This document shows, in pieces, positions 1,567 through 40,724 of a stretch of 64,000 bases of DNA. Within the stretch, counting starts at the first letter, position 1. Every line of letters starts with the position of its first letter. The translations under genes were made by a program, and so were the position numbers. The notes beneath the pieces are model-generated. The model had not been told where the DNA came from, searched no databases, and was given only the letters and a program-made list of their open reading frames with translations. Origin of the DNA: Panopea generosa (Eukaryota > Mollusca > Bivalvia > Adapedonta > Hiatellidae); assembly GCA_029582155.1 (NCBI GenBank), contig CM055899.1, positions 52,906,520 to 52,970,519 on the forward strand, in the 5' to 3' direction.

Positions 1567-3060
1567 CATAAGCTGTATGCGCATATTTTTATTGAAGGGT
1601 ATCACCGCCATAACTCTTAGTCTGAACTTTGTCGTTTGTTCTTTGTGCATTGGGTGTAAATGTTTCTTAGTTCTTTGTGGGAAATGGAACATTTCACCTT
1701 TGTAACTTTGCTATTTGTCTATCCTACTATATCCTATCATTGTAAAAGTTACATACGTCTTGTCTCCTCATGTCAGATAAAACATTACTTGTGGCAAAAA
1801 ATGTATTTTTAGAATTTAATGCATGTTTCGATATGTGTTTCGGCTGCATTCAGTCACGAATATCTTTTTATTCCAATGTTCACTCCCTTGGTAATGAGTG
1901 TAGGGAATGTATTTAGACAGGGTACCAGATAATTTCGACTGCTGCCGCTGAACGCCATCACTGTAATAAATCCTAACTTTCCATTATAACGTTCAGTGGC
2001 GCTGCAGAATTAGACAGGTCCCCTGTAAACAACTCAAGAAGTTGCGAATGGAAATATTTGCTGTTAACAGTCATCAGAATTCACAACTCTAAATACAGCC
2101 TTACACATTTAGGTCAGCTACCACCATTGCGTTTTCCATAGACTTACATTATGACGTATGACCTTATTTTCACTATTTCTACCATTCGTGGACCAAAAAG
2201 TCCTATATCATATTAAAGTACTACCCTAGACTCAAATTAAAATATCACCAAAATGGGGTAAAAAGATTCACTTTTTGTGGGAAAGTATCACTTTTTACCA
2301 CTTTTTGCCCCCTGAAGTTCGGTACCCCCACTTTCAGCATGAAAAAACACTAAATTTCACCAATTTTACTTTCCATACAGTTTCCTTAATAAAATGGATT
2401 AAGCTAGTCACAGAAACATAATTTTAATTTTTTATTGACACAGACATAATAAACTTATATTTTATTGTGATCATTTGCCAGTTTGGCATTTTCATCCAAC
2501 CAAAATTAAGCTTACTATAAAAATATATACCCTGAACACCCCTATACTTTTTTCAGTTGATCAGAGAGCTCCTCTCAATGGTGGTAGCTGACCATATGTT
2601 TCATATGACCAACGATGAAAACAAAGCAACACCGATTCCATTAGGGACCAGTCGTTTATCTCTCATGTTCGTCTAGCGGCACCTGTTGTCATAATTGACA
2701 ATGCCAGCTGTGTATTTCGCTTTGTTACATATGCCCAAGTGCGTTGTACAACATGCTTACTGCATAGTTTAACATTTGCAATTTGAATCCTTTCGAAACA
2801 CGTGATTATGCTGAACTCGTTATATTATGACAGGAAGTATGTAACTTTTACAATGATAGGATATAGTAGGATAGCCAAATAGCAAAGTTACAAAGGTGAA
2901 ATATTTCATTTCCCACAAAGAACTAAGAAGAAAGAAACATTTACACCCATTGTACAAAGAACAAACGACAAATTACAAACATAAGAGTTATGGTGGTGAT
3001 ACCCTTCCATCAATTTTTTATATGTGCTTATACATAAGCCTTATGCGCCTATTTTTTATA
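1567..3060. repeat. Inverted repeat pair, arms about 220 bp
   Basis: About 1567-1770 is the reverse complement of about 2826-3060, with roughly 10-15% differences. Shared words include CCTACTATATCCTATCATTG and GGGAAATG. The arms enclose a smaller MITE at 2111-2595. Confidence 0.7.
2111..2595. mobile_element. MITE with 18-bp terminal inverted repeats
   Basis: Begins GGTCAGCTACCACCATTG and ends with its exact reverse complement, about 485 bp in all. It is non-coding. Confidence 0.7.
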
Positions 3061-3245
3061 TGCGCTTATACATAAGCCTTATACGCCAATTTTTGATATG
3101 CACTTATACATAAGCCGTATGCGCCTATTTTTTGATATGCGCTTATACATAAACCTTATGCGCCTATTTTTGATATGCTTATACATCAGCTGTATGCGCC
3201 TATTTTTGAAATGCGCATATACATAAGCCTTATGCGCCTATTTTC
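3011..3245. repeat. About 36-bp tandem repeat, 6-7 units
   Basis: Each unit contains GCGCTTATACATAAGCC followed by TTATGCGCCTATTTTT. The words GCGCTTATA and TAAGC make each unit partly palindromic. The same words recur in the outer ends of the composite element. Confidence 0.85.
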
Positions 3246-4400: not shown

Positions 4401-4869
4401 AAAGCCATTTTTTTGTTGTTTTCGATACAAACACGTGTGTGCTCGACTGCCAATTTAATGTAAAACTATTACAATATGTTACGACGATGAAATAGGCTCA
4501 CATAAGACAAATCAAGTCAAAAATGCCTGAAATGCTTATATCACACGAGACATCGATTTTATCAAAACATCCATACGGAAAATTCTCAATATGTTATGTA
4601 TATATTGAGATCGTTATAGGAATATCATAGTGCTTTGTCTTTAATACTTTAGTGAAAAAATAGAGAGGAAATGAAGTAAACGTTTTATTTAAACGTCGAA
4701 TTAAAAGCAACATGCATTTTCCCATGCGCAGGTCACGAATAGGTGCCATGATCGTTACTGACTATCCTTCCGGTGCTGTAATGTAGGACCTAATGCCATA
4801 TATATACTATTTTTAAAATTAAGGAATAATTTAAGAAAATGTGTCGTTAATGTTCAAAATAGCAAACGA

Positions 4870-5035
4870 TAACAGTCAAACATGTGTAACGGGTCACCTC
4901 TATTAAACAGCCACTTGTCTTAAGCAGTCACATTTGCTATTTTCTATTTCTATGCTTTCAAAGCAAATTAACCTGACTAAAAAGGTCACTTTTGCTCCCA
5001 TGACTGGCTGCTTAAGACAGGTTTGACTGTATTAT
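4870..5035 (-). mobile_element. Tc1/mariner-like MITE (CAGTCAAACCTGT family)
   Basis: Starts ACAGTCAAACATGT and ends ACAGGTTTGACTGTA. The ends are inverted repeats flanked by TA, as in Tc1/mariner elements. Related copies lie at 15148-15329 and 41533-41632. Confidence 0.7.
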
Positions 5036-5424
5036 GTTTTTCTTCTATCCAATATTGGGTATATAACTATAAAATTCTATTTTTAGTAGTTAATAAGTTA
5101 GACGTTAAGATCGAACAATCACGACTGACCGTTGAAATTACTTTATTTCACTCTTGACATTTTCATTCATTTTCACTTAAACTTTTTTTCTGAAATGTAT
5201 GTACATGACATTAAAATACCACAGTACTTAATATCACTCGTGGTTTTGGAAAAGGGCAATATTCTAGTAAATGGTTGAAAGACTTAAAATCATCAATGAC
5301 AAAACGTTTAGATCTGTGTGATAAAATCATAGTAACGACCACTTTGTATTTTTTAAGATGTTTTATCAATTGTTTCAAAACTTGCAAGCCAGCACTAGCT
5401 TTATAAAAAGATAATAACTAATTT

Positions 5425-7815
5425 TATTAAATGATTAAGGTGTGTATCGTATGGTGGCATAGTTCTGCCATCAGTTATCCACTTACCTAACGCGATAAGT
5501 TCCTAGTTAACCACATAATTTTTGCGAAAAATATCTAGTTATCTAATAAATTAACACGATAAGTTTCTCGTTGAGATAAATATCTTCACTAGACTAAATG
5601 TATGTAAGTGCCCATCACTGCCACCACTTTAGTCTTATCTAGTTAACTATCGCGAAAAAAAATGTTATCTAGATAAAACGCAATAAGTTTCCAGTTAAAA
5701 TAAATATATTAACGCGAAAAGTTGCATATTTACTGCTCTGCAACTGCCACCACAAATCTACTTAGCTAACTGAATAACTAGATAATGTTCTTGTTACCAG
5801 TTATTTAATATTCGGAATACTTGGTTTTTACTCATTAAATCGCTTAACAGTCTCTATTCGAGTGGTTACGATTGGTTTGTAAAGTAATAGTCATGGATGA
5901 GGGAAGTTCAACTATAGTACATGTATATACGTACATGTGTTGTCTAGTATATCTTTTAATTTTCTTAGCCAAAAAAGCTTGGTTTACATTGCCATTAGTC
6001 GGTACCTGTTGTTTTTGGGATGTACTTTATATAAATGTTTATTGTTAAACATGTCTTGTGAAAGTTTGATTAGTTTTGAAGAAAAAAATCTCCATTTAGT
6101 AATGTCTACCAGACACATGTCCTGTAAATGACCAACGCCAATTTAAAACTATCTGCCTGACAAGGCTTTTTTATTCAAAAACACTATTAGAAAGTCTGGT
6201 TGATAAATAAAGACAAAAGACTAAACAATAAACTATATATTGTTTAACAATAAATATACTATAAACTATGGTAGAAATGTGTTTATTGACAAGGATGCCC
6301 TCTCTGTGTATGTGCAACTAGACGTTAAACTGATATTTTCAACTAAGTAGCCTCAAATTATGTTATGGAGTAGTCTTGACAATAATTATATTCGTTCATT
6401 AAACGAATTTAAAGGGCAATACCTCCGTTTAAAGCTGATAAACATAAACACCCCGACAACACGCGCAATTCGACTTCATACAGATATTTCTTACCAAGTT
6501 TCATGAAAATCTGAACAGTCCCTAAGTTGGAGTAGTCCGGACAAGAAAAGCCTGACATACGAACTTGCGTTCACTGTAAGGCGTTTCTTTTGTTTAAAAA
6601 AGCTACATAATGTAAAAAAAAAAGAAACAAAAATAACAGAATAAAACAAGGTCTATAGTTTTCAAAGATCCACAACAGGTCTAGACACTAACTTTTTAAT
6701 TGGATAACCAGAAGACTACCAAGGTAGTCCTGATTCATCGAAAATAAAAGTGTAACATTACCAAAAGAAATAGAAAAGTCAGCAGCGAAAACGTTCTGTA
6801 TAAATCCCCAAATATTGTTACATCTGTAAGTGTATTTTACAATGAACTTATATGGAAAGTGTTTTATTCAAATTTTAAAATAATTATTATTGATGTAGAT
6901 TCATGTTTTAATGTACTTGTTTTATCATTCAGGTACATTGATGCACGTTAATTCGTTTAGCAAAATCTATCCGCTTATCGTACCTGTGGTGACAACTTTA
7001 TTAACTTAGTTGCATTCTTTAGTTTTCGGATTTCAACATTCACAATGTAGTTCTTAAGTAATGCAGCCATTTTGGCCGATAGGCGTGACGCGTGGATTCT
7101 GCGAACGTGCTTAATGTTAAATCAGGACTTCTAACTAACATTTTTATCATTTTAACTTTAAACAGGAACAATAACAACTTCAGACAAATATGTTAAATAG
7201 CAGTGACTATGCAACTCTGTACTATATAACTGTAGTGTATATTTGCGGACATACGATGTACAAGTGTTTTTCCTGTTACACTTATATAATTTTATGAAAG
7301 TGTATATACTGTTATTTACTAAACGGATGATTATGTTGTATCATAACGTTTATTGAATATACAAATTGAAATACAGTGGCTGAACTTTACACCAAGTGTT
7401 TATCTTCAATCACTACCACCTTTAACCGTTACCGGTAGGACAAATCACTTCATAGATGTTACAAAATCCACAAGAAATGAAAAACAATAAAAAGCTATAT
7501 CCCAAAACAACAGATGCCGGCTAATGGAAATGTAAAACAAGCTAATTTTACTAAAAACATTAGAAAATATACTAGACAACACATCAACTATATGGTCTCA
7601 GCATTAACTAGATAGTTTTCGCAATAGTTAACTAGATAAGTGGTGGCAGTAAGTTGCACTAACAGTGATTTATTTTAATTATGTTATTTATCGTAATTAG
7701 AAACTTATCGTGTTAGTTAACTAGATAACTAGATAATTTTCGCGAAAATTAAGTGGTTAACTAGAAACATATCGCATTAGTTAAGTGGATAACTGGTGGC
7801 AGAACTAAGCCACCT
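5425..7815. mobile_element. Foldback element with about 300-bp inverted arms
   Basis: The ends share GTGGC, TAGTTCTGCCA and CAGTTATCCACTTA in inverted orientation. The arms are built from short words such as AACTAGATAA, TTATCGCG and CTGCCACCA. The interior (about 5810-7560) has no credible ORF. Confidence 0.65.
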
Positions 7816-23700: not shown

Positions 23701-26700
23701 CAGCTCGACACGATGCCTCTCATAAAACAACACTCAGTATTGGTTCTTCCCAGGAAGCGGACTCAAGAGCTCATCGCAATCAAGCTAAAATAAATTTGTA
23801 TAAAGTATTAGAATATTTACATGACAAATACATTCAATTTTCTCTTAGATCTTTATATTTATCGCAATCCGTAAAAAGTAATATTCATCTTCTACAACAC
23901 GCTCATCACACAATGTAAATAATCATCGTTCTCTTTTTATATTTCAATAACAACCTCATTCAGTTTGTAAGTCATGAGAACTCGACTGAAAGCATGCATA
24001 AATATTGTGAAATTTTCTGATATTTAGCTCATCGAGATACTTTTCATATGCAAAACATTGTTAAAACTTGATCTAATAAGTACTAAGCTTTGAGCTAGCA
24101 GTAACAGTTCCATTCCAGTCTTGTCAGTACTGATCTTTCAATCTACTTGTAAATGTAGTAATAAAACAATCTCTTATAACTTGTGTTACTATTTATTTCA
24201 GATTTGGACCATACTGCAGATGTACAGTGAGTTATTTTTATTATAGAGAAATATATTTATTGATTAATTAATAATTAAAAATGTGTTTTAAGACTAGAGC
24301 CCCACCTACACACATGTCACCTCAATAGCCTTGTAAAGTAGGAGTTCAAACTGTTGACTTTCTGAAATATTTCAAATACTGCTTCCCTGTCTCGGGGCTG
24401 GAAAATGTCAGGACAAGTAATATATACTTTCCCTGTTTCCCTGTCTGTAGTAATTCAAATACTTTCCCTGTCTGAAATATTTCACAAACTGTTTCCCTCT
24501 CTGAAATATTTCAAATTCTGTTTCCCAGCCTGAAATAATACAAATTCTGTTTCCTGTCTGAAGTATTTCAAATACTGTTTCCCTGTTTGAAATATTACAA
24601 GTTCTGTTTTCCTGTCTGAAGTATTTCAAATTCTGTTTCCCAGCCTGAAATATTTCAGATACTGTTTCCTTGCCTGAAACATTTACAATACTGTTCCCTT
24701 GCCTAAAATATTTCAAACACTGTTTTCTTGCCTAAAATATTTCAAATACTGTTTCCTTGCCTGAAATATTTCAAATTCTGTTTCCCTGTTTGAAATATTT
24801 CAAAAACTGTTTCTCTGCCTGAACTATTTCAAATACTGTTTCTCTGCCTAAATATTTCAAATTCTGTTTCCCTGTCTGAATTATTACAAATAATGTTTCC
24901 CTGCCTGAAATATTACAAACACTGTTTCCCTGCTTGAAATACTACAAACACTGTTTCCCAGCCTGAAATATTTCAAATTCTGTTTCCCTGCCTGAACTAT
25001 TACAAAAACTGTTTCCCAGCCCGAAATACTACAAACACTGTTTCCCTACCTGAAGTATTAAGGATACTGTATCTCTGTTTGAAATATTTCAAATACTGTT
25101 TCTCTGTCTGAAATTTTTCATATACTGTTGCCCTGCCTGGCATTACAAATTCTGTTTCTTTGCCTGAAATATTTAAATACTGTTTCTCTGCCTGAAATAT
25201 TTCAAATTCTGTTTCCAGTCTGAAATATTACAAACACTATTTCCTTGCCTGAAATATTTCAAATACTGTTTCTCTGCCTGAAATATTTCAAATTCTGTTT
25301 TAGGAGTAAGTGTTGGAGGGGATGTAGGAAGGGGTGTAGAAAGTTGTGTAGGAGGGATGTTGGATGTGGTGTAAGAGAGGGTGAAGAAGGTAGTGTAGGA
25401 GGGTTGTTGGAGGGGGTGTTGGAGGTGGTGTTGGAGGGGGTATAGGACGGGTATTGGAGGTGGTGTTGGAGAGGGTATAGGAGGGGTGTTGGAGGGGGTG
25501 TAGGAGTGGTGTTGGATATGGTGTAGGAGAGGATGAAGAAGGTTGTGTAGGAGGTGGTGTTTGAGGTGGTGTAAGAGGTGGTGTTGGATGGGGTGTAGGA
25601 GGGGGTGTAGGAGTGGTGTTGGATATGGTGTAGGAGAGGATGTAGAAGGTTGTGTAGGAGGTGGTGTTTGAGGTGGTGTTAGAGGTGGTGTTGGAGGGGG
25701 TGTAGGAGGGGGTGCAGGTGGGGTGTCGGAGGGGGTGTAGAAAGGGTGTTGGAGGGGGTGTTGGAGGGGGTGATTGTGTTGGTGTTGGAGGGGTGTAGGA
25801 GGTGGTGTTGGAGGGGGTGTAGGAGGTGGTGTTGGAGGGGGTGATGGAAGGGTGTAGGAGAGGTGTAGGAGGGGTTTTGGAAGTGGTGTTGGAGGGGTAG
25901 TAGGAGGTGGTGTTGGAGGGGGTGTAGGAAGGGGTGAAGAAGGTTGTGTAGGAGGGGTGTTGGAGGAGGTGTAGGAGGGATGTTGGAGATTGTTTTGGAG
26001 AGGGTGTAGAAGGTTGTGTAGGAGGGATGTTGGAGGTAGTGTTGGAGGGGGTGTAGGAGATGGTGTTGGAGATGGTGGTGGAGGTGGTGTTGGAGGTGGT
26101 GTTGGAGGGGGTGTAGGAGATGGTGTTGGAGGGGGTGATGGAGGGGTGTTGGAGGGGATGTAGGAGGTGGTGTTGGAGATGGTGTTGGAGGAGGTGTTAG
26201 AGGTGGTGTTGGAGGAGGTGTTGGAGGTGGTGTTGGAGATGGTGTTGGAGATGGTGTAGGAGGTGTTGGAGGAGGTGTTGGAGGTAGTGTAGGAGATGGT
26301 GTTGGAGATGGTGTAGGAGGTGTTGGAGATGGTGTTGGAGGTGGTGTGTGAGGTGGTGTGTGAGGTGGTGTTGGAGGGGGTGTAGGAGAGGGTGTTGGAG
26401 GGGTGTTGGAGGGGGTGTAGGAGGTGGTGTTGGAGATGGTGTAGGAGAGGGTGTAGAAGGTTGTGTAGGAGGGATGTTGGAGGTGGTGTTATAGGGGGTG
26501 TAGGAGGGTGTGTTGGTCGTGTAGGAGGAGTGTTGGAGGTTGTGTTGGAGGTGGTGTTAGAGATGGTGTTGGAGGGTGTTTAGGAGAGGGTGTAGAAAGT
26601 TGTGTAGGAGGGATGTTCGAGGGGGTGTTGGAGGTGGTGTAGGATGTGGTGTAGGAGAGGTGTTGGAGGTGGTGAAGGAGGGAGTGTTACAGGTGGTGTT

Positions 26701-29700
26701 GGAGGGGGTGTTGGAGATGGTGTAGGAGAGGTGTAGGAGGTGGTGAAGGAGGGAGTGTTGGAGATGGTGAAGAAGGTGGTGTTGGGGATGGTGTTTTAGG
26801 GGGTGTAGGAGGTGTTTGAAATGGTGTTGGAGATGGTGTTGAAGGTGGTGTTGGAGGAGGTGATGGAGGTGGTGTTGGAGATGGTGTAGGAGGTGTAGGA
26901 TGTGGTGTTGGAGATGGTGTTGGAGGAGGTGTTAGAGGTGGTGTTGGAGGAGGTGTTGGAGATGGTGTTGGAGATGGTGTAGGAGGTGTTTGAGGAGGTG
27001 TTGGGGGTGGTGTAGGAGATGGTGTTGGAGATGGTGTAGGAGGTGTTGGAGATGGTGTTTGAAGAGGTGTTGGAGATGGTGTTGGAGGAGGTGTTGGAGG
27101 TGTTTTGGAAGTGGTGTTGGAGATGGTGTCGGAGGAGGTGTTGGAGATAGTGTTGGAGGTGGTGTAGGAGGAGTGTTGGAAGTGGTGTTTGAGGTGTTGG
27201 AGATGGTGTTGGACGGGGTGTAGGAATGGGTTTGAGATGGTGTAGAAGGTGTAGTAGGTGGTGTTGGAGGAGGTGTTGGAGGTGGTGTAGGAGGTGGTGT
27301 AGGAGGTGTTGGAGGTGGTGTTGGAGGAGGTGTTGGAGATGGTGTTGGAGGAGGTGTAGGAGGGGTTTTGAAAGTGTTGGTGGAGGTGGTGTTTGAGATT
27401 GTGTTGGAGGTGGTGTTGGAGATGTTGGAGGTGGTGTTGGAGGAGGTGTTGGAGAAGGTGTTGGAGGGGGTGTAGGAGAGGTATTGGAAGTGGTGTTGGA
27501 GGTGTTGGAGATGGTGTTGGAGGTGGTGTAGGAGGTGTTGGAGGTGGTGTTGGAAATTGTGTTGGAGGTGGTGTAGGAGATGGTGTTGGAGATGGTGTAG
27601 GAGGTGTTGGAGATGGTGTTTGAAGAGGTGTTGGAGATGGTGTTGGAGGAGGTGTTGGAGGTGTTTTGGAAGTGGTGTTGGAGATGGTGTCGGAGGAGGT
27701 GTTGGAGATAGTGTTGGAGGTGGTGTAGGAGGAGTGTTGGAAGTGGTGTTTGAGGTGTTGGAGATGGTGTTGGACGGGGTGTAGGAATGGGTTTGAGATG
27801 GTGTAGAAGGTGTAGTAGGTGGTGTTGGAGGAGGTGTTGGAGGTGGTGTAGGAGGTGGTGTAGGAGGTGTTGGAGGTGGTGTTGGAGGAGGTGTTGGAGA
27901 TGGTGTTGGAGGAGGTGTAGGAGGGGTTTTGAAAGTGTTGGTGGAGGTGGTGTTTGAGATTGTGTTGGAGGTGGTGTTGGAGATGTTGGAGGTGGTGTTG
28001 GAGGAGGTGTTGGAGAAGGTGTTGGAGGGGGTGTAGGAGAGGTATTGGAAGTGGTGTTGGAGGTGTTGGAGATGGTGTTGGAGGTGGTGTAGGAGGTGTT
28101 GGAGGTGGTGTTGGAAATTGTGTTGGAGGTGGTGTAGGAGGTGTTGGAGATTGTGTTAGAGGTGGTGTAGGGGGTATTGGAGGTGGTGTTGGAGATGGTG
28201 TTGGAGGTGGTTTAGGAGGTGTTGGAGGTGGTGTTGGAGATTGTGTTGGAGGTGGTGTAGGAAGGGTGTTGGAAGTAGTGTCGAAGATGTGTTGGAGTTG
28301 GATGTTGGTGATGGTGTAGGAGGGGATGTTGAAGGGGATGTAGGAGAGGTGTTGGAGGGGGATGTTGGATATGGTGTAGGAGGAGGTGTTAGAGGGGTGT
28401 AGGAGGGAGTGCAGGAGGGGTGTTGGAAATGGTGTTGGAGGGGGTGTAGGAGAGGTGTTGGAGGTGGTACAGGAGGGAGTTTTAGAGGTGGTGTAGGAGG
28501 TGGTGTAGGAGAGAGTATTGGAGGTGGTGTCGGATGTGGTGTTGGAGGTGGTGTTGGAGGGAGTGATGGAGATGGTGTTGGAGGGGGTGTAGGAGTGGTG
28601 TTGGAGTTGGTGTAGGAGATGTGTTGGAAGGGGATGTTGGAGATGGTGTAGGAGGGGTGTTGGAGGGGGTGTAGGAGGGAGGGTAGGACAGTTGTTGGAG
28701 GTGTTTTCATTTTCTTTGTTGACTTTTTGTGAACTTTGAGCTACACCAATATCTTTTAACCTGATATTTATTATATCATTTCAGGCTGCATGCATGTATC
28801 CTTTACTGAAAGACAGAGACCAGTTTATCAGGTGTACACACTATATTGTGTTGCTATTATTTCCTTATAGTAAAAGCGATAACAGATACATGGTATTTAC
28901 AGTATTGTACTGCTGTTATTTACTGTATTGTACAAACTAAAACATGTACATGTGTACTTACAGTATTGTACTGCTGTTATTTTCTGTATTGTACAAGCTT
29001 AAACAGGTAAATGTGTACTTACAGTATTGTACTGCTGTTATTTACTGTATTGTACAAACGAAAACAGGTAAATGTGTACTTACAGTATTGTACTGCTGTT
29101 ATTTACTGTATTGTACAAACTAAAACAAGAAAAATGTGTTCTGACAGTATTGTACTGCTGTAATTTAATGTATTGTATACACTAAAACAGGTAAATGTGA
29201 AATTACAGTATTGTACTGTTATTATTCACTGTATTTGTACACACTAAAATAGGTAAATGTGTACTTATAGTATTGCACTGCTGTTATTTACTGTATATGT
29301 ACACACTAAAATAGATAAATGTGTACTTACAGTATTGTACTGCTGTTATTTACTGTATTGTACACACTGAAACACTTACAGTATTGTAGTGCTGTTATTT
29401 TCTGTATTGTACACACTGAAACATCTACATGTGTACTTAAAGTATTGTACTGCTGCTATTTACTGTATAGTACACACTAAAACAGGTAAATGTGTACTTA
29501 CAGTATTGTACTGCTATTATTTACTGTATAGTACACACTAAAACAGGTGCATGTGTACTTACAGTATTGTGCTGTTATTCACTGTATTATACAAACTAAA
29601 ATAGGTACATGTGTACTTACAGTGTTGTACTGCTGTTATTTACTGTATTGTACAAAGTAAAAAAGATACATGTGTACTTACAGTATTGAATTGCTGTTAT

Positions 29701-32700
29701 TTACTGTATTATTCAAACTAAAACAGGTATGTATGTGCTTAACTATTACTACCTGCACTAATTGCTCATATATGTATACAAAGCACACGTTTTTTCAGAG
29801 GTAACACACAAATTAATCTTCCTTAACAAACCAATCAGGGGGAGACAATCTACAGGAAGCCTTTGAACAGGTATGTTTGATGGTTTATCTCCCCTTTTGT
29901 ACATGTAATTGAAACTGGTCTTTACATAAGAAAGAGCTGTTGTTACTCTCATTTACTGTCCATGTTTTTATAAAGTAACTTATTTCCATGAACTTACTAG
30001 AACCTAGGTTCAAGTCCTCTCCCTCCAAAATCTTTTTGTGAGAAAGTTTCCAGTTACTTGCGGAAGGACGGTGGTTCTACTCAGTCTGAAGTCTTTGTCC
30101 ACCAGTAAAACTGGATATTCCATATATAATCTGAAATGTGTTGAAAATGGCATTAAACCCCATTCTTACTAGAACCTTTGTTGACAGTGTACTGTGTTGA
30201 TAAAAGCCATGTCAGTATATGTATACAGTTTTGGCCTAGAACAGAAACTGACCATAGATTCTATAAGTGTACAGGGGTGAGCTCAAACAACTCTATGTGA
30301 ACAGTGGTGAGCTCAAACAACTCTGTATGTGAACAGTGGTGAGCTTAAACAACTCTATGTTCGACTCTCTTTTTATTGGATCTTCACAAAACTTATTTAA
30401 TATTAATGTAATCATAATATCTATCACAAATTCTGTCCTTCTGATGTTGTTAAGGTGTCTGAACTGATAAAGTGGCTTTCTAATGTTGGTAAGGTGTCTG
30501 GCCTGATATAGTGGCTTTCTAATGTTGGTAAGGTGTCTGAACTTATATAGTAACATTTTAATGTTGGTAAGGTGTTTGAATAATAAAGTGGCCTTCTGAT
30601 GTTGGTAAGGTGTCTGACCTGGTATAGTGACATTCTGATGGTGGTAAGGTGTCTGACCTGATATAGTGACCTTCTGATGTTGACAAAGTGTTTGAATAAT
30701 ATTGTGGCCTTCTGATGTTGGTAAGGTGTCTGACCTGGTATAGTGACATTCGGATGGTGGTAAGATGTCTGACCTGCTATAGTGACATTCGGATGGTGGT
30801 AAGGTGTCTGACCTGATATAGTGACCTTCTGATGTTGACAAGGTGTTTGAATAATATTGTGGCCTTCTGATGTTGGTAAGGTGTCTGACCTGGTATAGTG
30901 ACATTCTGATGGTGGTAAGGTGTCTGACCTGATATAGTGATCTTCTGATGTTGACAGGGTGTTTGAATAATATTGTGGCCTCCTGATGTTGGTAAGGTGT
31001 CTGATCTGCTATAGTGACATTCGGATGGTGGTAAGGTGTCTGACCTGATATATTGACCTTCTGATGTTGACAAGGTGTTTGAATAATATTGTGGCGTTCT
31101 GATGTTGGTAAGTTGTCTGAGCTGGTATAGTGACATTCTGATGGTGGCAAGGTGTCTGACCTGATATACTGACCTTCTGATGTTGATAAGGTGTTTTACC
31201 TGATATAGTGTCCTTCTGATGTTGGTAAGGTGTTTGACCTGATATAGTGACATTCTGATGGTGGTAAGGTGTCTGGCCTGATTTAGTGATCTTCTGATGT
31301 TGATGAGGTGTTTGACCTGATAGAGTATCCTTCTGATATTAGTAAGGTGCCTGACCTGATATAGTGACCATCAGATGTTGGTTAGATGTCTGACCTGATA
31401 TAGTGTCCTTCTGATATTGGTAAGGTGTCTGACCTGATAAAGTGGTCTTCTGATGTTGGTAAGGTGCCTACCCTAATATAGTGTCCTTCTGAGACTGGTA
31501 AGGTGTCTGACCTAGTAGAGTGACCTTCAGATGGTGGTAAGGTGTCTGACCTGATATAGGTACCTTTTGATGGAGATAAGATGCTTGATCTGATAAAGTG
31601 TCCTTCTGATGTTGGTAAGGTGTCTGACCTAGTATAGTGGCCTTCTGATGTTGATAAGGTGTCTGACCTGGTATAGTGACCTTCCGATGTTGGTAAGATG
31701 TCTGACCTGATAAAGTGACCATCTGATGGTAAGATTTCTGACCTGATATAGTTACCTTCTGATGGTGGTAAGGTGTCTGACCTGATATAGTGACTATCTG
31801 ATGGTGGTAAAGTGTCTGACCTGGTATAGTGGCCTTCTGATGTTGGTTATGTGTCTGACCTGATATAGTGACATTCTGATGTTGGTAAGGTGTCTGCCCT
31901 GGTATAGTGACCTTCTGATGTTGGTAAGGTGTCTGCCCTGATATAGTGACCTTCTGTTGTTGGTAAGGTGTCTGACCCGATATAGTGATGTTCTGATGTT
32001 GGTAAAGTGTCTGACCTGATAAAGTGACCTGCTGGTGAAAAGATGTCTGACCTGTTATAGTGAACTTCTGATGTTGGTAAGGTGTCTGCCCTGATATAGT
32101 GACTTTCTGATGTTGGTAAGGTGTCTGACCTGATATAGTGATGTTCTGATGTTGGTAAAGTGTCTGATCTGATATAGTGATTTTCTGATGTTGACAGGGT
32201 GTTTGAATAATATTGTGGCCTCCTGATGTTGGTAAGGTGTCTGACCTGCTATAGTGACATTCAGATGGTGGTAAGGTGTCTGACCTGATATAGTGACCTT
32301 CTGATGTTGACAAGGTGTTTGAATAATATTGTGGCCTTCTGATGTTGGTAAGGTGTCTGACCTGGTATAGTGACATTCTGATGGTGGTAAGGTGTCTGAC
32401 CTGATAAAGTGATCTTCTGATGTTGACAGGGTGTTTGAATAATATTGTGGCCTCCTGATGTTTGTAAGGTGTCTGACCTAGTAAAGTGACATTCTGATGG
32501 TGGTAAGGTGTCTGACCTGATATACTGACCTTCTGATGTTGATAAGGTGTTTTACCTGATATACTGACCTTCTGATGTTGATAAGGTGTTTTACCTGATA
32601 TAGTGTCCTTCTGATGGTGGTAAGGTGTCTGACCTGATATAGTGATTTTCTGATGTTGATGAGGTGTTTGACCTGATATAGTATCCTTCTGATATTGGTA

Positions 32701-35700
32701 AGGTGCCTGACCTGATAAAGTGACCATCAGATGTTGGTTAGATGTCTGACCTGATATAGTGTCCTTCTGATATTGGTAAGGTGTCTGACCTGATAAAGTG
32801 GCCTTCTGATGTTGGTTAGGTGTCTGATCTGATATAGTGACTATCTGATGGTGGTAAAGTGTCTGACCTGGTATAGTGGCCTTCTGATGTTGGTAATGTG
32901 TCTGACCTGATAAAGTGACATTCTGATGTTGGTAAGGTGTCTGACCTGGTATAGTGACCTTATGATGTTGGTAAGGTGTCTGCCCTGATATAGTGACCTT
33001 TTGTTGTTGGTAAGGTGTCTAACCTGATATAGTGATGTTCTGATGTTGGTAAAGTGTCTGACCTGATAAAGTGACCTGCTGGTGGAAAGATGTCTGACCT
33101 GTTATAGTGACCTTCTGATGTTGGTAAGGTGTCTGCCCTGATATAGTGACTTTCTGATGTTGGTAAGGTGTCTGACCTGATATAGTGATGTTCTGATGTT
33201 GGTAAAGTGTCTGATCTGATAAAGTGACCTTCTGCTGGTGGAAAGATGTCTGATCTGTTATAGTGACCTTCTGATGGTGGTAAGGTAATTGACCTGATAT
33301 AATCATGTTCTGATGTTGGTAAAGTGTCTGACCTGATATAGTGTCATTCTGATGATGGTGGTAAAATGTCTGTCCTGATATATTGACCTTCTGATGTTGG
33401 TAAGGTGTCTGACCTGATATTGTGACCTTCTGGTGTTGACAATTATGTGTGTATGTTAGGTAGGTCAAATCACCTATACTTTTCTATTTCAGGTTGTTAC
33501 TTCAATGTTTGGCTACATGACTACAGATTATTCAACAGTTGAAATGCTGGAAGAACAAGAAATTGAAGCTGAAGGTACTGTATACTGTATAAGTACATAC
33601 CTGTGTGTTATTGGAGGTACTGTATATAAGTACATACCTGTGTGTTATTGAAGGTACTGTATATAAGTACATACCTCTGTGTTATTGAAGGTAATGTATA
33701 CTGTATAAGTACATACCTGTGTGTTATAGAAGGTACTGTATACAGTATAAGTACATACCTGTGTGTTATTGAAGGTACTTTATATAAATACATACCTGTG
33801 TGTTATTGATAGTAATGTATATAAGTCATACCTGTGTGTTATTGGAGGTACTCTATATAAGTACATACCTGTACATTAGTGAAGGTATTGTATATAAGTA
33901 CATACCTGTGTGTTATTGAAGGTACTGTATATAAGTACATACCTTTGTTTTATTGACAGTAATGTATATAAGTACATATCTGTGTGTTATTGAAAGTACT
34001 GTATAAGTACATATCTGTGTGTTATTGAAGGTACTGTATATAAGTACATACATGTGTATTATTGATAGTAATGTATATAAATACATACTTGTGTGTTATT
34101 GAAGGTACTGTGTATAGGTACATACATGTGTATTATTGATAGTAATGTCTATAAGTACATACCTGTGTGTTATTGAAGTAACTGTATATAAGTACATACC
34201 TGTGTGTTATTGAAGGTACTGTATATAAGTACATACCTGTGTGTTATAGATAGTTATGTATATCATTATATATGTATGTGTTATTGATAGTAATGTCTTT
34301 ACGTACATACCTGTGTGTTATTGATAGTAATGTCTTTAAGTACATACCTGTGTACTAATGATAGTTATGTCTATAAGAACATACCTGTGTGTTATTGATA
34401 GTAATGTCTATAAGTACATACCTTTGTGTTATTTATAGTAATGTATATAAGTATATACATGTGCATTATTGATAGTAATGTCTATAAGAACATTACTGTG
34501 TGTTATTGATAGTAATGTCTATTAAGTACATACCTGTGTGTTATTGATAGTTATGTCTATAAGTACATACCTTTGTGTTATTTATAGTAATGTATATAAG
34601 TATATACTTGTGTGTTATTGATAGTAATGTATATAAGTACATACCGGTATGTTATTGAAGGTACTGTATATAAATACATACCTGTGTGTTATTGAAGGTA
34701 CTGTATATAAGAACATACCTGTGTGTTATTGATAGTAATGTATATAAGTACATACCTGTGTGTTAGTGATAGTAATGTATATAAGTACATACCTGTGTAT
34801 TATTGATAGTAATGTCTATAAGTACATACCTGTGTGCTATTGATAGTAATGTATATAAGTACATACCTGTGTGTTAGTGATAGTAATGTGTATAAGTACA
34901 TACCTGTGTATTATTGATAGTAATGTCTATAAGTACATACCTGTGTGCTATTGATAGTAATGTATATAAGTCCATACCTGTGTGTTATTGATAGTAATGT
35001 ATATAAGTACATGCCTGTGTATTATTAAAGGTACTGTTTATAAGTACATACCTGTGTGTTATTGATAGTAATGTATATAAGTACATACCTGTGTGTTATT
35101 GATAGTAATGTCTATAAGTACATACCTGTGTATTATTAAAGGTACTGTATATAAGTGCACACCTGTGTATTATTGATAGTAATGTATATAAGTACATACC
35201 TGTGTGTTATTGATAGTAATGTCTATAAGAACATACCTGTGTGTTATTGAAGGTACTGTATATAAGAACATACATGTGCATTATTGATAGTAATGTCTAT
35301 ACATACATACCTGTGTGTTATTGATAGTAATGTCTATAAGTACATACCTGTGTATTATTGAAGGTACTGTATATAAGAACATACATGTGCATTATTGATA
35401 GTAATATCTATAAGAGCATTACTGTGTGTTATTGTTAGAAATGTCTATAAGAACACACCTGTGTGTTATTGACAGTAATGTCTATAAGTACATACCTGTG
35501 TATTATTGAAGGTACTGTATATAAGAACATACATGTGCATTATTGAAAGTAATGTCTATAAGAACATACATGTGTGTTATTGATAGTAATGTCTATAAGT
35601 ACATACCTGTGTGTTATTGATAGTAATGTATATAAGTGAATACCTGTGCATTATTGATAGTAATGTATATAAGTACATACCTGTGTGTTATTGATAGTAA

Positions 35701-38700
35701 TGTTTATAAGAACATACCCGTGTGTTATTGAAGGTACTGTATATAAGAACATACATGTGCATTATTGATAGTAATGTCTAAAAGTACATACCTGTGTGTT
35801 ATTGACAGTAATGTCTATAAGTACATACCTGTGTGTTATTGATAGTAATGTCTATAAGTACATACCTGTGTGTTATCGAAGGTACCGAATATTGCATAAG
35901 TACATACCTGTGTGTTATTGAAGGTACTGTATACTGTATAAGTACATATTTGTGTGATATTGAAGGTACTGTATATAAGTACATACTTGTGTGTTGTCTA
36001 TAGGTACTGTGTATAAGTATATACCTGTGTGTTATTGAAGGTACTGTATTTAAGTACATGCATGTGTTTTATTGAAGGTTCTGTATATAAGTACATGCAT
36101 ATGTTTTATGAAATGGAATCAATTATGGAATGGAATCATTGTTGTTATGCTCCCGCAATTTTCAATGGGAGGCATATAGTATCACCGCTGTCCGTTCTTA
36201 AGAAATTGGTTTCCGGCTTATATCTTCATTTTAAAAAAACAGATTTAAACCAAAGTTGGTGTGTGACTTCACATTCAGGTAATACAGGTCAAGTACATAT
36301 TTCGTTACGGTCTGATGATTTTTGATGGAGTTATGCCCCTTTTTGGACTTCGATTATTGACAAATGTCAAGAAATTGATTTCCGCTCGATATCTCTTGAA
36401 GGATTGGATGGATTTGATTCATATTTGGTAGAGAGACATATGGGGATAAACTACAGCTCGTGTTCAATTTCCATTAAAATCCCTGCTTATTAATGAGGTG
36501 TTTGGGCTCTGATTGGCTGATAGTTTCCAACCTCTAAAGACTTTATTTATGGACCGATTTTGACGAAAATTTATATTTGGCTTTATATCAACAAGACCCA
36601 GGTCAAGATCGACAATGGATGGAATTGGTCCATATTAATTAGGTGATCTGGACTCTGATTGGCTGATGATTTCAGACCCCTAAAATCTTTATTGATATTT
36701 GGCTTTATTGATATATACAATGCAGTTATAAAGTGGGGGCATCTGTTTCCCATGGACACATTTCTAGTTTATTATGTAATTGACTGTTTACTGACGTTTG
36801 ATTTCAGGGGAGGATATGGAATCAGTGCTGTTTATTATGTGATTGACTGTTTACTGATGTTTGATTTCAGGGGAGGATTTGCTGTTTATTATGTGATTAT
36901 TGTTTACTGATGTTTGATTTCAGGGGAGGATACGGAATCATTGCTGTTTATTATGTGATTGATCTTTTACTGATGTTTGATTTCAGGGGAGGATACGGAA
37001 TCATTGCTGTTTATTATGTGATTGATCTTTTACTGATGTTTGATTTCAGGGGAGGATACGGAATCATTGCTGTTTATTATGTGATTGACTGTTTACTGAT
37101 GTTTGATTTCAGGGGAGGATACGGAATCATTGCTGTTTATTATGTGATTGACTGTTTACTGATGTTTGATTTCAGGGGAGGATACGGAATCATTGCTGTT
37201 TATTATGTGATTGACTGTTTACTGATGTTTGATTTCAGGGGAGGATACGGAATCATTGCTGTTTATTATGTGATTGATCTTTTACTGATGTTTGATTTCA
37301 GGAGAGGATACGGAATCATTGCTGTTTATTGTGTGATTGATCTTTTACTGATGTTTGATTTCAGGGGAGGATACGGAATCATTGCTGTTTATTATGTGAT
37401 TGACTGTTTACTGATGTTTGATTTCAGGGGAGGATACGGAATCATTGCTGTTTATTATGTGATTGATCTTTTACTGATGTTTGATTTCAGGGGAGGATAC
37501 GGAATCATTGCTGTTTATTGTGTGATTGATCTTTTACTGATGTTTGATTTCAGGGGAGGATACGGAATCATTGCTGTTTATTATGTGATTGATCTTTTAC
37601 TGATGTTTGATTTCAGGGGAGGATACGGAATCATTGCTGTTTATTGTGTGATTGATCTTTTACTGATGTTTGATTTCAGGGGAGGATACGGAATCATTGC
37701 TGTTTATTATGTGATTGATCTTTTACTGATGTTTAATTTCAGGGGAGGATACGGAATCATTGCTGTTTATATATGATTGACTGTTTACTGATGTTTGATT
37801 TTAGGGGAGGATATGGAATCATTGTTGTTTATTATGTGATTGACTGTTTACTGATGTTTGATTTCAGGGGAGGATATGGAATCTTTGTTGTTTATGATGT
37901 GATTGACTGTTTACCGACGTTTGATTTCAGAGGAGGATATGAAATCATTGTTGTTTATTATGTGATTGACTGTTTACTGATGTTTGATTTCAGTGGAGGA
38001 TATGGAATCAATGTTGTTTATTATGTGATTGACTGTTTACTGATGTTTGATTTCAGGAGAAGATATGGAATCATTGTTGTTTATTATGTGATTGACTGTT
38101 TACCGACATTTAATTTCAGGGGAGGATATGGAATCATTGTTGTTTATGATGTGATTGACTGTTTACTGATGTTTGATTTCAGGGGAGGATATGGAATCAT
38201 TGTTGTTTATGATGTGATTGACTGTTTACTGATGTTTGATTTCAGGGGAGGATATGGAATCATTGTTGTTTATGATGTGATTGACTGTTTACTGATGTTT
38301 GATTTCAGGGGAGGATATGGAATCATTGCTGTTTATTATGTGATTGACTATTTACTGATGTTGATTTCAGGGGACGATATGGAATCATTGTTGTTTCATT
38401 TTCTGGATGAATGGTTGTTTATATTTTCTGCTGATCCATTTTTTATTCCGAGGGTAAGTAGGTATATCAGTGGTTAATATAATGTGTGGTAAGTCAGTGC
38501 TAAAACATTAGTACCTGTCATATACTTGTTGATGCCAATTTGTTAGTCATAGAGGCTTATCCTTGGTAACATTATATTTTTAAGCTCACCTGAGCAAAGC
38601 TCAAGATGACCCATTCTGATCACCTTGCATCTGTTTATAAACATTTTTGTTGTGTGCGCTCTATTACCCGCAATTTGAATTGGATCTTCACTAAACTTTC

Positions 38701-40724
38701 AAAGTAGTTATATAACCATAATATCGCAGATAATTTCACGAGCTGTCCTAATCAGATAATTAATGACAAAATTATGGCCCTTGAAACATTAACATTTTCA
38801 CAATTGGACTTTGTGTCCACTCTAGCAATCTTTTCAATGGATGTTCATCAAGGTTACATAGTAACAGTAGTTATATAACCATAATATCTCGGACAAGTTT
38901 ATGATAAAATAAAAAAATAAAAATCTGAGTTATGGTCCTTGATTTGTAAACAATTGTATTTTTTACCTTGTGTGCATTCTAGTACCCAGATTTTTATTAA
39001 TTTTGACTGTTACCAGACTTCCTCAGTAGTTACGTAAACATAATATTGTAAACTCAAATGATGTTTACGGTAACTGTATAAAATTTTGAATACGTCATCC
39101 TAGTGATCTTGTAGTGACTATTGCTTTTGGGGAGGCTTTAAATACAAAATTCATGTATTTTCTGTTACCATGGACACAAGTAACAAAAATTGCAAAATTT
39201 GCTGTTTCTGGTGCACAACTCTAAAACCATAAACCTTAGTATACATGTCAACCTAGTGGTTAAGTATTGCCTTCTGCTGTTGTGGAGTTTTCTTTTTCAT
39301 TATTTTTTCTATTTCCATGGAAACATTGGCCAAAATTAAATTGAATTCTCCATTTAGGAGCAAGCTCCAAAACTGTTCAAAATAACTTTAAATAAAAGTT
39401 TGTACATATGTCAACTTAGTGATCTAATAATGCCTTTTGCTATGAGGGAGTTTTCATTTTCAGTATTTGTTTTGTTGCCATTGAAACTGTTCTGTTACCA
39501 TGGAAACATTTAGCCAAAAAAATATAAAATTTTTCCTTTCTGGTGCACAACTTCAAAACCTAATGGTCTAGTTGTGCATTTTGCTGTGGAGAAGAACATC
39601 TAAATAAAATACCTCTCATGGCGCGAGATATTGATGGCTATGTCTTCTTGTTCTGATATGCAATGCAAGTCAGTTGCTTGGCTCCCGGAAATTCCTTAGG
39701 TATTTGGATATAAGATAGTCCAAGGTTACATCAAAATGGCAATGTAATTCTTTTTTTTCTCTGGTATTTTACACCAGAAATGATGCAGATAGCCGCATTT
39801 TATGCTAAATATTACTACATGTATTATACAACATTTGTAATGCATTACATCAAGAGGATACAAATAACTGGTTATGTTGCTTTAAAAATGTTTATGAAAG
39901 AGATTGATTGTTACTAAAACGATAATTTCTGTATCATTTCAGAAAGTTGTTATAACAGAATTTGATTTGGAAAATTTCAAAATAAAATCATTGGGGTAAG
40001 TTTTCTTTAACTTTACAGGACCAAAGTGTGCATGTCATGTCAATTAACTTATTTTGTAAACACTCAGAAACTTTAGTAATTTTTTTTTATCTGATACTGA
40101 CCAACCTTGGTTAACATGTTTACAGTGATGAATGTGTACACAGAGATTAACTTAGTAGCAGTAATGGTTCCTCCATGGTATAAGGCACGGTCTAATGACC
40201 GTTTATCTCACACTATTGAGGTTGCAAAGATTAACTAAGTAGCAGTAATGGGTCCTCCATGGTATAAGGCACGGTCTAATGACCGTTTATCTCACACTGT
40301 TGAGGTTGCAAGTTCAAGCCCTGTTTGGATCAAAACTTTATGTGAGAAAGTTTGCCAGTTACATTGTACTTGTAGATGGATGGCAGTTCTACTCTGATTT
40401 ATTCAGACATCTTGCTCCACCAATAAAACTGGCATTATATAACTAGCTAATGCATATCTGACATTGTATTTTTCATTTTATAAATAGCCTGAGCCTATCT
40501 GACGTTATCTCATCCATGAATTGTATTAGTACCCTGGGGTTATCCGACGTTGTAGATTTCTTGCATTTTTTAATATGTATTATTTTATTTATACTGGCAG
40601 ATATGGTGAAGCTTTCGAAATAGGGAAACATCCCCAGGGTACAGAAGTGAAGGCAATCACATACTCCAACATGCAGATATACGACGGTGATAAACATGAA
40701 GTCTTTGTCATCATAGATATTTGA
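19683..40724 (+). CDS. ZBTB8OS: Archease (RtcB ligase activator), complete, 8 coding exons
   Basis: Joined exons 19683-19731, 24202-24226, 28785-28795, 29839-29870, 33493-33574, 38371-38453, 39943-39995 and 40601-40724 give 459 nt, 152 residues plus TGA, with every intron GT-AG and all phases matching. The product carries the archease signatures: KYEYLDHTADVQLHAWG at residues 14-30, MFGYM (44-48), SLLFHFLDEWL (72-82), FSADPFFIPR (85-94), HPQGTEVKAITYS (122-134) and the C-terminal VFVIIDI. Known family role: archease promotes guanylation and turnover of the RtcB RNA ligase in tRNA splicing and, in animals, XBP1 mRNA splicing; the Asp of DHTAD and the acidic C-terminus belong to its metal site. 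The human protein is slightly longer at the N-terminus. The start is the first ATG in frame, directly before the conserved core. Only 459 coding bases are spread over 21 kb because introns 2-5 contain large minisatellites. Upstream non-coding exons cannot be excluded. Confidence 0.96.
20118..20765. repeat. Duplicated about 215-bp block in archease intron 1
   Basis: The block beginning TTTGGCAGAGGCCTTGATAT occurs near 20126 and near 20550, about 425 bp apart and over 90% alike. Each copy includes an (AT)n tract whose length differs. Confidence 0.85.
21457..21748 (+). mobile_element. tRNA-derived SINE, family A, full length
   Basis: A box TGGTCTAGTGG at 21464-21474 and B box GGTTCAATCC at 21506-21515. 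The head resembles tRNA-Val (GCCTCACACG in the anticodon region). The body carries CTCAGCATTTAGAG and ATACCATGTGTCTG, and the end is GCGACGCTAAACACCATGCA. It is in archease intron 1, sense orientation. Confidence 0.85.
21880..22105. repeat. Duplicated about 65-bp segment
   Basis: GAAACTTTCTAGGATG through CACTACCAAGTGGAAATGCA and CAGAGTTATG occurs near 21935 and again near 22049. Confidence 0.8.
22201..22498 (-). mobile_element. tRNA-derived SINE, family B, full length
   Basis: The minus-strand head reads GCCCGATTAGCTCAGTCAGT, with B box GTGAGTTCGGATCCCC. The 3' end is a TTGA-type simple tail (22201-22240 on the plus strand). It is in archease intron 1, antisense. Confidence 0.85.
23217..23520 (+). 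mobile_element. tRNA-derived SINE, family A
   Basis: A box TGGTCTAGGGA near 23227 and B box GGTTCGATCC near 23270. It has the same body and GCTAAACACCATACAA end as 21457-21748. It is in archease intron 1. Confidence 0.85.
23645..23790 (+). mobile_element. tRNA-like SINE fragment
   Basis: GGCGGTAGTGTAATGTTGGC resembles a degenerate A-box region, followed by B box GGTTCCATCCCC. Similar in layout to the minus-strand element at 62900-63060 (CCCAGGAA...GGACTC). Confidence 0.5.
24202..24226 (+). CDS. ZBTB8OS: Archease exon 2 (25 nt)
   Basis: A 25-nt exon encoding YLDHTADV and the first two bases of Gln25. The acceptor is TTTATTTCAG and the donor CA|GTGAGT. It carries the signature metal-site motif DHTAD. 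Confidence 0.95.
24362..25305. repeat. 29-bp minisatellite, about 32 units (archease intron 2)
   Basis: Unit words are CTGTTTCCCTGCCTG and AAATATTTCAAATA. Units vary by several substitutions. The array abuts the G-rich array that follows. Confidence 0.9.
25306..28705 (+). repeat. 3.4-kb G/T-rich minisatellite (archease intron 2)
   Basis: Built from short related units such as GGTGTTGGAGGTGGTGTAGG, with many GG and GGGGG runs on the transcribed strand, so the pre-mRNA could form G-quadruplexes. It ends only about 80 bp before the microexon. Long cysteine/tryptophan- or glycine-rich frames inside it are artefacts of unit length. Confidence 0.95.
27005..28127. repeat. 561-bp near-identical tandem duplication inside the G-rich array
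   Basis: About 27005-27566 repeats as about 27567-28127. Irregular markers such as GACGGGGTGTAGGAATGGG recur exactly 561 bp apart (27212 and 27773). Confidence 0.85.
28785..28795 (+). CDS. ZBTB8OS: Archease exon 3, 11-nt microexon
   Basis: Eleven bases (GCTGCATGCAT) after acceptor ATCATTTCAG and before donor GTATCC. They restore CAG-CTG-CAT-GCA-T|GG, giving the conserved QLHAW, and are the only way found to join exon 2 (phase 2) to exon 4 (needs phase 1). Two overlapping TGCATG words span the exon and its donor. The donor is weak. Confidence 0.88.
28860..29740 (+). repeat. About 60-bp minisatellite, about 15 units (archease intron 3)
   Basis: Units contain GTGTACTTACAGTATTGTAC, TGCTGTTATTTACTGTA and AAAACAGGTAAATG. 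Each unit therefore has an acceptor-like TTACAG and, about 45 nt later, a donor-like CAG|GTAAAT. Confidence 0.9.
29839..29870 (+). CDS. ZBTB8OS: Archease exon 4 (32 nt)
   Basis: Encodes the end of Trp29, then GDNLQEAFEQ. The acceptor is CCAATCAG and the donor CAG|GTATGT (phase 0). It matches the family's WGDTLEEAFEQ segment. Confidence 0.94.
30000..30165 (+). mobile_element. SINE fragment, family C (archease intron 4)
   Basis: Words GAAAGTTTCCAGTTACTTGC, GGTTCTACTC, TAAAACTGGATATTCC and GTTGAAAATGGCATTAAACC. It has the same body and end as the copies at 41085, 53640 and 55290. Confidence 0.7.
30425..33455. repeat. 39-bp minisatellite, about 77 units (archease intron 4)
   Basis: Unit words are GTGTCTGACCTGATATAGTG and ACCTTCTGATGTTGGTAAG. 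Because 39 is divisible by 3, the minus strand stays open for up to 419 codons; these frames are not genes. The array ends about 40 bp before exon 5. Confidence 0.95.
33493..33574 (+). CDS. ZBTB8OS: Archease exon 5
   Basis: Encodes VVTSMFGYMTTDYSTVEMLE and EQEIEAE plus one base. The acceptor is TTCTATTTCAG and the donor GAAG|GTACTG. This donor is itself the first unit of the intronic 37-bp array that follows. Confidence 0.94.
33571..36110 (+). repeat. About 37-bp minisatellite starting at the exon 5 donor (archease intron 5)
   Basis: Unit words are GTACTGTATATAAGTACATA and CCTGTGTGTTATTGAAG, about 68 units. The exon 5 donor GAAG|GTACTGTATA is itself the junction found between units. A variant with GATAGTAATG, which destroys the donor, fills most of the distal part. 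Confidence 0.95.
36770..38397 (+). repeat. 63-bp array repeating the exon 6 splice acceptor (archease intron 5)
   Basis: Each unit contains GTTTGATTTCAG|GGGAGG then ATATGGAATCATTGTTGTTT, i.e. the real acceptor and about the first 26 bases of exon 6 with one consistent difference (GAG for GAC). Acceptor copies end at 36807, 36870, 36923 and then every 62-63 bp to 38308; the real one ends at 38370. Units at 36923-37776 are almost identical to one another; those at 37777-38370 are closer to the exon but more varied. Confidence 0.97.
38371..38453 (+). CDS. ZBTB8OS: Archease exon 6
   Basis: Encodes GDDMESLLFHFLDEWLFIF and SADPFFIPR. The acceptor is TTGATTTCAG and the donor AGG|GTAAGT. The acceptor and about the first 26 bases are repeated 25 times upstream in the 63-bp array. 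This copy is the real exon, because only here does the frame continue past SLLF into HFLDEW. Confidence 0.95.
38582..39620 (+). mobile_element. Mollusc interspersed repeat (AGCTCACCTGAGC type) in archease intron 6
   Basis: Starts TTAAGCTCACCTGAGC then AAAGCTCAAGATGACC. The body has diverged internal repeats such as AGTAGTTATATAACCATAAT (twice) and TGGAAACATT. No ORF. Confidence 0.6.
39943..39995 (+). CDS. ZBTB8OS: Archease exon 7
   Basis: Encodes KVVITEFDLENFKIKSL plus two bases of Gly112. The acceptor is TATCATTTCAG and the donor GG|GTAAGT. Confidence 0.94.
40143..40455 (+). mobile_element. SINE family C with tandemly duplicated head (archease intron 7)
   Basis: An 84-bp head with AAGGCACGGTCTAATGACC is present twice in tandem (about 40145-40228 and 40229-40312). 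It is followed by GGTTGCAAGTTCAAGCCC and the CCAATAAAACTGG tail. Confidence 0.7.
40601..40724 (+). CDS. ZBTB8OS: Archease exon 8 with stop
   Basis: Encodes GYGEAFEIGKHPQGTEVKAI through VFVIIDI and TGA at 40722-40724. The acceptor is ATACTGGCAG. It contains the highly conserved HPQGTEVKAITYS block and the acidic C-terminus typical of archeases. Confidence 0.95.

Follow-up and report, generated by a model that had tools for sequence, protein, structure and literature searches.

The archease gene of the bivalve mollusc Panopea generosa carries in its fifth intron two tandem arrays that copy the two splice borders of that same intron, a donor array built of a 37-base-pair (bp) unit and an acceptor array built of a 63-bp unit. 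The gene lies in a stretch of 64,000 nucleotides (nt) of contig CM055899.1 (GenBank assembly GCA_029582155.1; positions 52,906,520 to 52,970,519 of the forward strand), which is called the window throughout. Intron 5 is 4,796 nt long, and the two arrays make up about 86% of it. Minisatellite-like tandem duplications of exon/intron borders have been named mirages in the lancelet genes Adh3, BflGb6, BflGb9, troponin C and PGBD5 (PMC3087553 and PMC3902484). The structure of the archease border arrays is that of the lancelet mirage, a name that the preliminary description of this DNA had overlooked; it reported the acceptor array and missed the donor array of about 67 copies in the same intron. 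As far as our searches show, the novel aspects are the amplification of both borders of one intron, the copy numbers, the animal, and a sign of recurrence across genes. We consider it likely that archease intron 5 carries two mirages at its two ends, and that these are mostly neutral and ignored by splicing, probably by way of exon definition.

The joined exons 2-8 (Table 1) encode 135 residues that match Pfam PF01951 (E 5.6e-39; residues 1-135 aligned to profile positions 4-136 of 136), and exon 6 by itself retrieves archease chains from the PDB (about 7e-11). This match and the intact modelled exons bear out the previous placement of the array in an archease gene. A gene with a mirage is expected to stay intact and to give normal mRNA; the reading frame of exons 2-8 is unbroken as modelled from the genomic sequence. 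When the genome (1,474,161,289 bases in 39 contigs) was searched with PF01951, two matches were obtained, both within the window; a second archease gene that would relax the constraint on this one was not found by that search, and this idea was rejected. Exon 1 was not identified, with tblastn alone bearing on it.

Tandem Repeats Finder delimits the acceptor array at 36759-38396, with a period of 63, 26.2 copies and 94% matches. The array holds 26 AG acceptors between 36807 and 38370, and the 25 decoy 3' splice sites that had been proposed to precede the real acceptor (38370) are indeed present. As in the lancelet mirages, the full unit spans the border, with 37 nt of intron end and 26 nt of exon start; it contains TTGAC/TTTAC/CTGAT motifs, which we take to be branch-point-like, followed by a tract, CAG and the exon-derived 26 nt. 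The units are somewhat less uniform than first described: 22 of the 25 measure 63 nt, two measure 62 nt and one 53 nt, and the acceptor said to be the same in each unit reads GATTTCAG in 22 of the 25 copies, AATTTCAG at 37742 and 38119, and GATTTTAG at 37804. That the units carry about the first 26 nt of exon 6 holds for the 24 copies compared (the 53-nt unit was left out), each with one to four differences from the exon; the fifth base after the AG, a C in exon 6, is a G in 24 copies and an A in one. A chance origin of the exon match is ruled out, because it falls exactly on the junction of a gene that matches PF01951. The pyrimidine tract scores 10 of 16 in the true site as in each of the 25 copies, a value within the range of 9-13 for the other six acceptors of the gene. 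A genome search with two units, which scores the best candidates only and in which the absence of a match does not show rarity, gave 12 matches that all fall within the acceptor array; on these best candidates, the array is not a dispersed satellite. Since the unit length of 63 is divisible by three, long open stretches of 288 and 234 codons occur in one frame of the acceptor array between 36910 and 38477; the 234-codon stretch reads on in frame with exon 6, thanks to a single-base deletion in the final unit.

The donor array is placed by Tandem Repeats Finder at 33588-36096, with 67.3 copies. Its units mostly end in TTATTGAAG|GTACTG or TTATTGATA|GTAATG, and the true exon 5 donor is the first copy of the array, which shares the TGAAG of the exon. 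One search pattern detects 63 donor-like sites including the true one, and a looser pattern detects 114 GT sites. Splice signals are thus repeated in the units of both arrays (the AG in 25 of 25 acceptor copies, the donor-like signal at the 63 sites), while the donor array is the weaker case of a border-spanning unit because just 5 nt of it derive from the exon. The copies that adjoin the real exons are intact. In the acceptor array, signs of concerted evolution are visible by eye: inner units share ACGG/GCTG, edge units differ, and identical units occur in runs.

Arrays spanning splice junctions were also found at 7 of 70 myosin exon matches and at none of 49 CCT exon matches, counts that are rough lower bounds, since the ends of the matches come from the profiles and need not coincide with junctions, and since the seven arrays were recognised by eye. 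They lie at the donor of the myosin sites L058, L061, L079 and L098 and at the acceptor of L060, L062 and L067; L061 is the least clean of the seven, with two good donor copies amid diverged units. The archease gene had been picked for its array, and its 2 of 13 modelled junctions are therefore excluded from the rate. The CCT sample comprises 49 of 53 matches, the four outside eight gene clusters having been dropped, and the myosin sample 70 of 82, the first 38 chosen for closely spaced exons, the following 20 in list order and the last 12 roughly so. The score limits of Tandem Repeats Finder were 50 within 150 bp and then 30 within 40 bp for CCT, and 30 for myosin. Random points fell in a comparable position at a rate of 0.0136 in the CCT loci, of 0.0213 in the first 33 myosin loci, where six of the arrays lie, and of 0.0205 in the window. 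With two edges per exon match, about 4.3 arrays are expected (98 x 0.0136 + 140 x 0.0213) and 7 were found, and a clear enrichment or depletion at splice junctions was accordingly rejected; for CCT alone, about 1.3 are expected versus none found. Before the last 12 myosin exons were added, the two families differed (6 of 58 versus 0 of 49; Fisher p 0.03), which may reflect chance or the choice of regions. Since arrays are at least as frequent at junctions as at random points, there is no sign of strong selection against them, given that the exon-edge copy is kept.

Several repeats near exons were left uncounted in this survey. At L051 an array begins about 17 nt beyond the probable donor, and at L076 one stops 8 nt from the exon match with the acceptor not repeated. 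L044 and L048 have 1.9-copy repeats within exons; short, weak repeats with a period of 10-15 adjoin the exons of L056, L057, L058, L060 and L067; and those of L047, L052, L061, L070, L091 and L093 lie at least 49 nt away. At the CCT locus L051, apparently one 183-bp satellite unit occurs in two arrays (2045-3081 and 4533-5695), one of them being the array that begins about 17 nt past the probable donor.

Use of the copies in archease would nearly always break the reading frame. All 25 acceptor copies, when joined to the true donor, would truncate the modelled protein by a stop after 57-61 residues, as the preliminary description had anticipated; the peptide it gave ahead of the stop, GEDMESLLFIM, is exact in 3 of the 25 copies only, with GEDTESLLFIM in 10. 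The archease frame survives in two of the 1,638 combinations of 63 donors with 26 acceptors. One is the true pair; the other joins donor 33617 (the first donor copy) to the true acceptor and would insert 14 residues after EAEG. We give little credence to the idea that this donor copy yields an in-frame archease variant; the frame is kept, but the pair is the sole such combination besides the true one, and the insert is array sequence.

Because the copies share the pyrimidine count and the AG of the true acceptor, the choice of site must be governed by position or by features external to the repeat. We suggest that recognition of exons as units would keep splicing to the exon-edge copies. A strong donor, GAGG|GTAAGT, lies 83 nt downstream of the true acceptor and would pair best with the nearest acceptor, and use of the acceptor copies would produce exons of 145-1,646 nt. 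Occasional use of a copy would lead to early stops and presumably to RNA decay, and the arrays would therefore be close to neutral.

The arrays might instead lower or tune archease output, with copy-spliced pre-mRNA meeting a stop and being destroyed, and with array length setting expression. Such a role would agree with the stops reached from all 25 acceptor copies, with the loss of frame in 1,636 of the 1,638 tested pairs, with the match between copies and true acceptor in tract and AG, and with the fact that donor and acceptor of one intron are both affected. We nevertheless regard it as unlikely: reverse transcription-polymerase chain reaction suggests that lancelet mirages are spliced normally (PMC3087553 and PMC3902484), junctions bear arrays at no less than the random-point frequency, contrary to a strong cost, and no gene-specific sign of regulation was found. 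The preliminary description had left the choice between selection of the correct copy by outside features and a lowered output; the copies do match the true site in tract and AG, but nothing shows that they are used or that output falls. Less probable again is a rheostat in which about 60 donor and 25 acceptor copies would divert transcripts to decay, array length, varying between individuals, would set the archease level, and a genome-wide library of such devices would exist at several per cent of exons. Local RNA structure that masks the copies while keeping the true acceptor accessible would account for a choice among near-equal sites, yet it appears very improbable, as the predicted local-folding accessibility of the last 10 nt, a crude 10-nt joint measure, is low throughout, ranging from 0.000 to 0.040 over the 26 sites, with 0.003 at the true one. 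Predicted accessibility thus does not separate the true acceptor from the copies, and structure was rejected as the discriminator.

Several observations weigh against two near-neutral mirages that splicing ignores. The true acceptor is short of one T that the units have, and an ungapped comparison therefore shows 2-3 differences from the copies in the last 12 nt. None of the 25 copies has lost its AG, and the final 15 columns rank among the most conserved of the unit (3 of 63 windows score equal or higher, itself included); together, these two features might be taken as a sign of selection on the copies. By the donor consensus, the true site GAAG|GTACTG is weak, and it is one of 16 identical GAAG|GTACTGT sites. 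The splicing of archease intron 5 is predicted from genomic sequence; the reports of normal splicing deal with other animals, and the globin arrays among them have 3 and 6 units as compared with 25 and 67 here. For myosin alone, about 3 arrays are expected versus 7 found, so the comparison with random points is not a clean fit.

A single tandem duplication between identities of 4 nt may have started each array, with GTTT in the acceptor and TGAA in the donor array; this evidence is suggestive, because identities of four bases can arise by chance. The acceptor array is bordered by intron TAGTTTATTATG at its left and exon TTGTTTCATTTT at its right, with unit junctions that mostly read TGTTTATTATG, while for the donor array TGAA is present both at the end of the exon (TGAAG) and at the right edge (TATGAAATGG). 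The shared GTTT marks the probable seed of the acceptor array, and the earlier proposal that duplication across the intron-exon border seeded this array is supported. Among its 22 units of 63 nt there are 12 distinct sequences, with variants in ordered blocks, and adjacent units differ by 4.1% on average versus 7.1% for all pairs, which fits growth by local copying. After seeding, the arrays would have grown by slippage or unequal exchange, and selection to maintain the coding exon would have left the exon-edge copy in use. Tandem arrays are error-prone in assembly, and the genome draft of one lancelet mirage was apparently aberrantly assembled (PMC3087553, note on additional file 4). We hold it highly improbable that assembly created or inflated the archease arrays, given that the units vary in 12 kinds among 22, that the variants form ordered blocks, and that similar arrays occur at myosin exons.

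Table 1. Positions, within the window, of the archease exons and of the arrays in intron 5 (a bar in a motif separates exon and intron)
Feature	Position	Strand	Remarks
Archease exon 2	24202..24226	+	encodes LDHTADVQ
Archease exon 3	28785..28795	+	11-nt microexon; modelled, required to join frame DVQ-LHAW
Archease exon 4	29839..29870	+	
Archease exon 5	33493..33574	+	true donor GAAG|GTACTG at 33575; exon end CTGAAG|GTACTG
Donor array	33570..36113	+	37-bp unit, about 67 copies; edges by eye
Intron 5 core outside both arrays	36114..36766	+	653 nt, by subtraction
Acceptor array	36767..38396	+	63-bp unit, 25 copies and true site; final 26 nt within exon 6
Left-edge GTTT	36767..36770	+	shared with exon 6 right edge 38393-38396; probable seed, as read from the sequence
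Archease exon 6	38371..38453	+	GDDMESLLFHFLDEW...FFIPR; donor GAGG|GTAAGT
Archease exon 7	39943..39995	+	
Archease exon 8	40601..40724	+	last coding exon; EVFVIIDI then stop

To our knowledge, mirages have been known only from lancelets, whose genome (about 0.5 gigabases) is smaller than that of P. generosa (1.47 gigabases). The copy numbers of about 67 and 25 in archease compare with 6 and 3 in the two BflGb6 haplotypes. Mirages are further characterised by length polymorphism, somatic or germline; the archease copy numbers come from one assembly. In lancelet PGBD5 the repeats lie over both kinds of splice site, whether in one intron or in several. Recursive splice sites likewise place several splice signals inside one long intron; recursive splicing is ruled out here, since there is no juxtaposed AG|GT and the acceptor copies read AG|GGGAGG or a variant. 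In the human IFI6 (6-16) gene, a minisatellite is said to give multiple splice donor sites, a finding credited to Turri et al. in 1995. Two downstream units of it are used as donors, giving rise to three mRNA species (PMC4526556). The archease donor copies resemble these units as potential splice donors; in contrast, any use of the archease copies would nearly always break the frame. Splice signals are also multiplied by tandem duplication in the Rogers model of intron gain through duplicated proto-splice sites (as cited in PMC3087553), but no new intron has arisen in archease, where a single, merely longer intron separates E-A-E and G-D-D. No mollusc case of such junction arrays was found in the openly licensed literature, judged by titles and abstract openings, nor was an openly licensed paper found that links minisatellite, splice site and intron in bivalves; in the accessible part of a report on earthworm metallothionein (PMC12783039), no junction array was found.

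Tandem arrays occupy about one third of the 64-kilobase window. The intron before exon 4 contains a 61-bp array (28844-29729), in which many units combine an acceptor-like TACTTACAG with a donor-like ACAGGTAAAT and so look like tandem pseudo-exons. A 39-bp array of about 77 copies (30437-33438), with donor-like TTGGTAAGG in many units, lies in the intron before exon 5 and stops 54 nt upstream of that exon.

The choice among near-identical splice sites is usually studied with engineered duplications. With its roughly 60 donor and 25 acceptor copies, the archease intron, together with seven further myosin junctions, provides natural test material. Each copy would leave a junction read of its own, so that a single RNA dataset could show how site choice depends on distance, copy number and exon size. 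The border arrays show one route of intron lengthening, and array-rich genomes may generally give rise to mirages as their tandem arrays grow. In archease intron 5 of P. generosa, splicing must select one correct site among dozens of near-identical ones.
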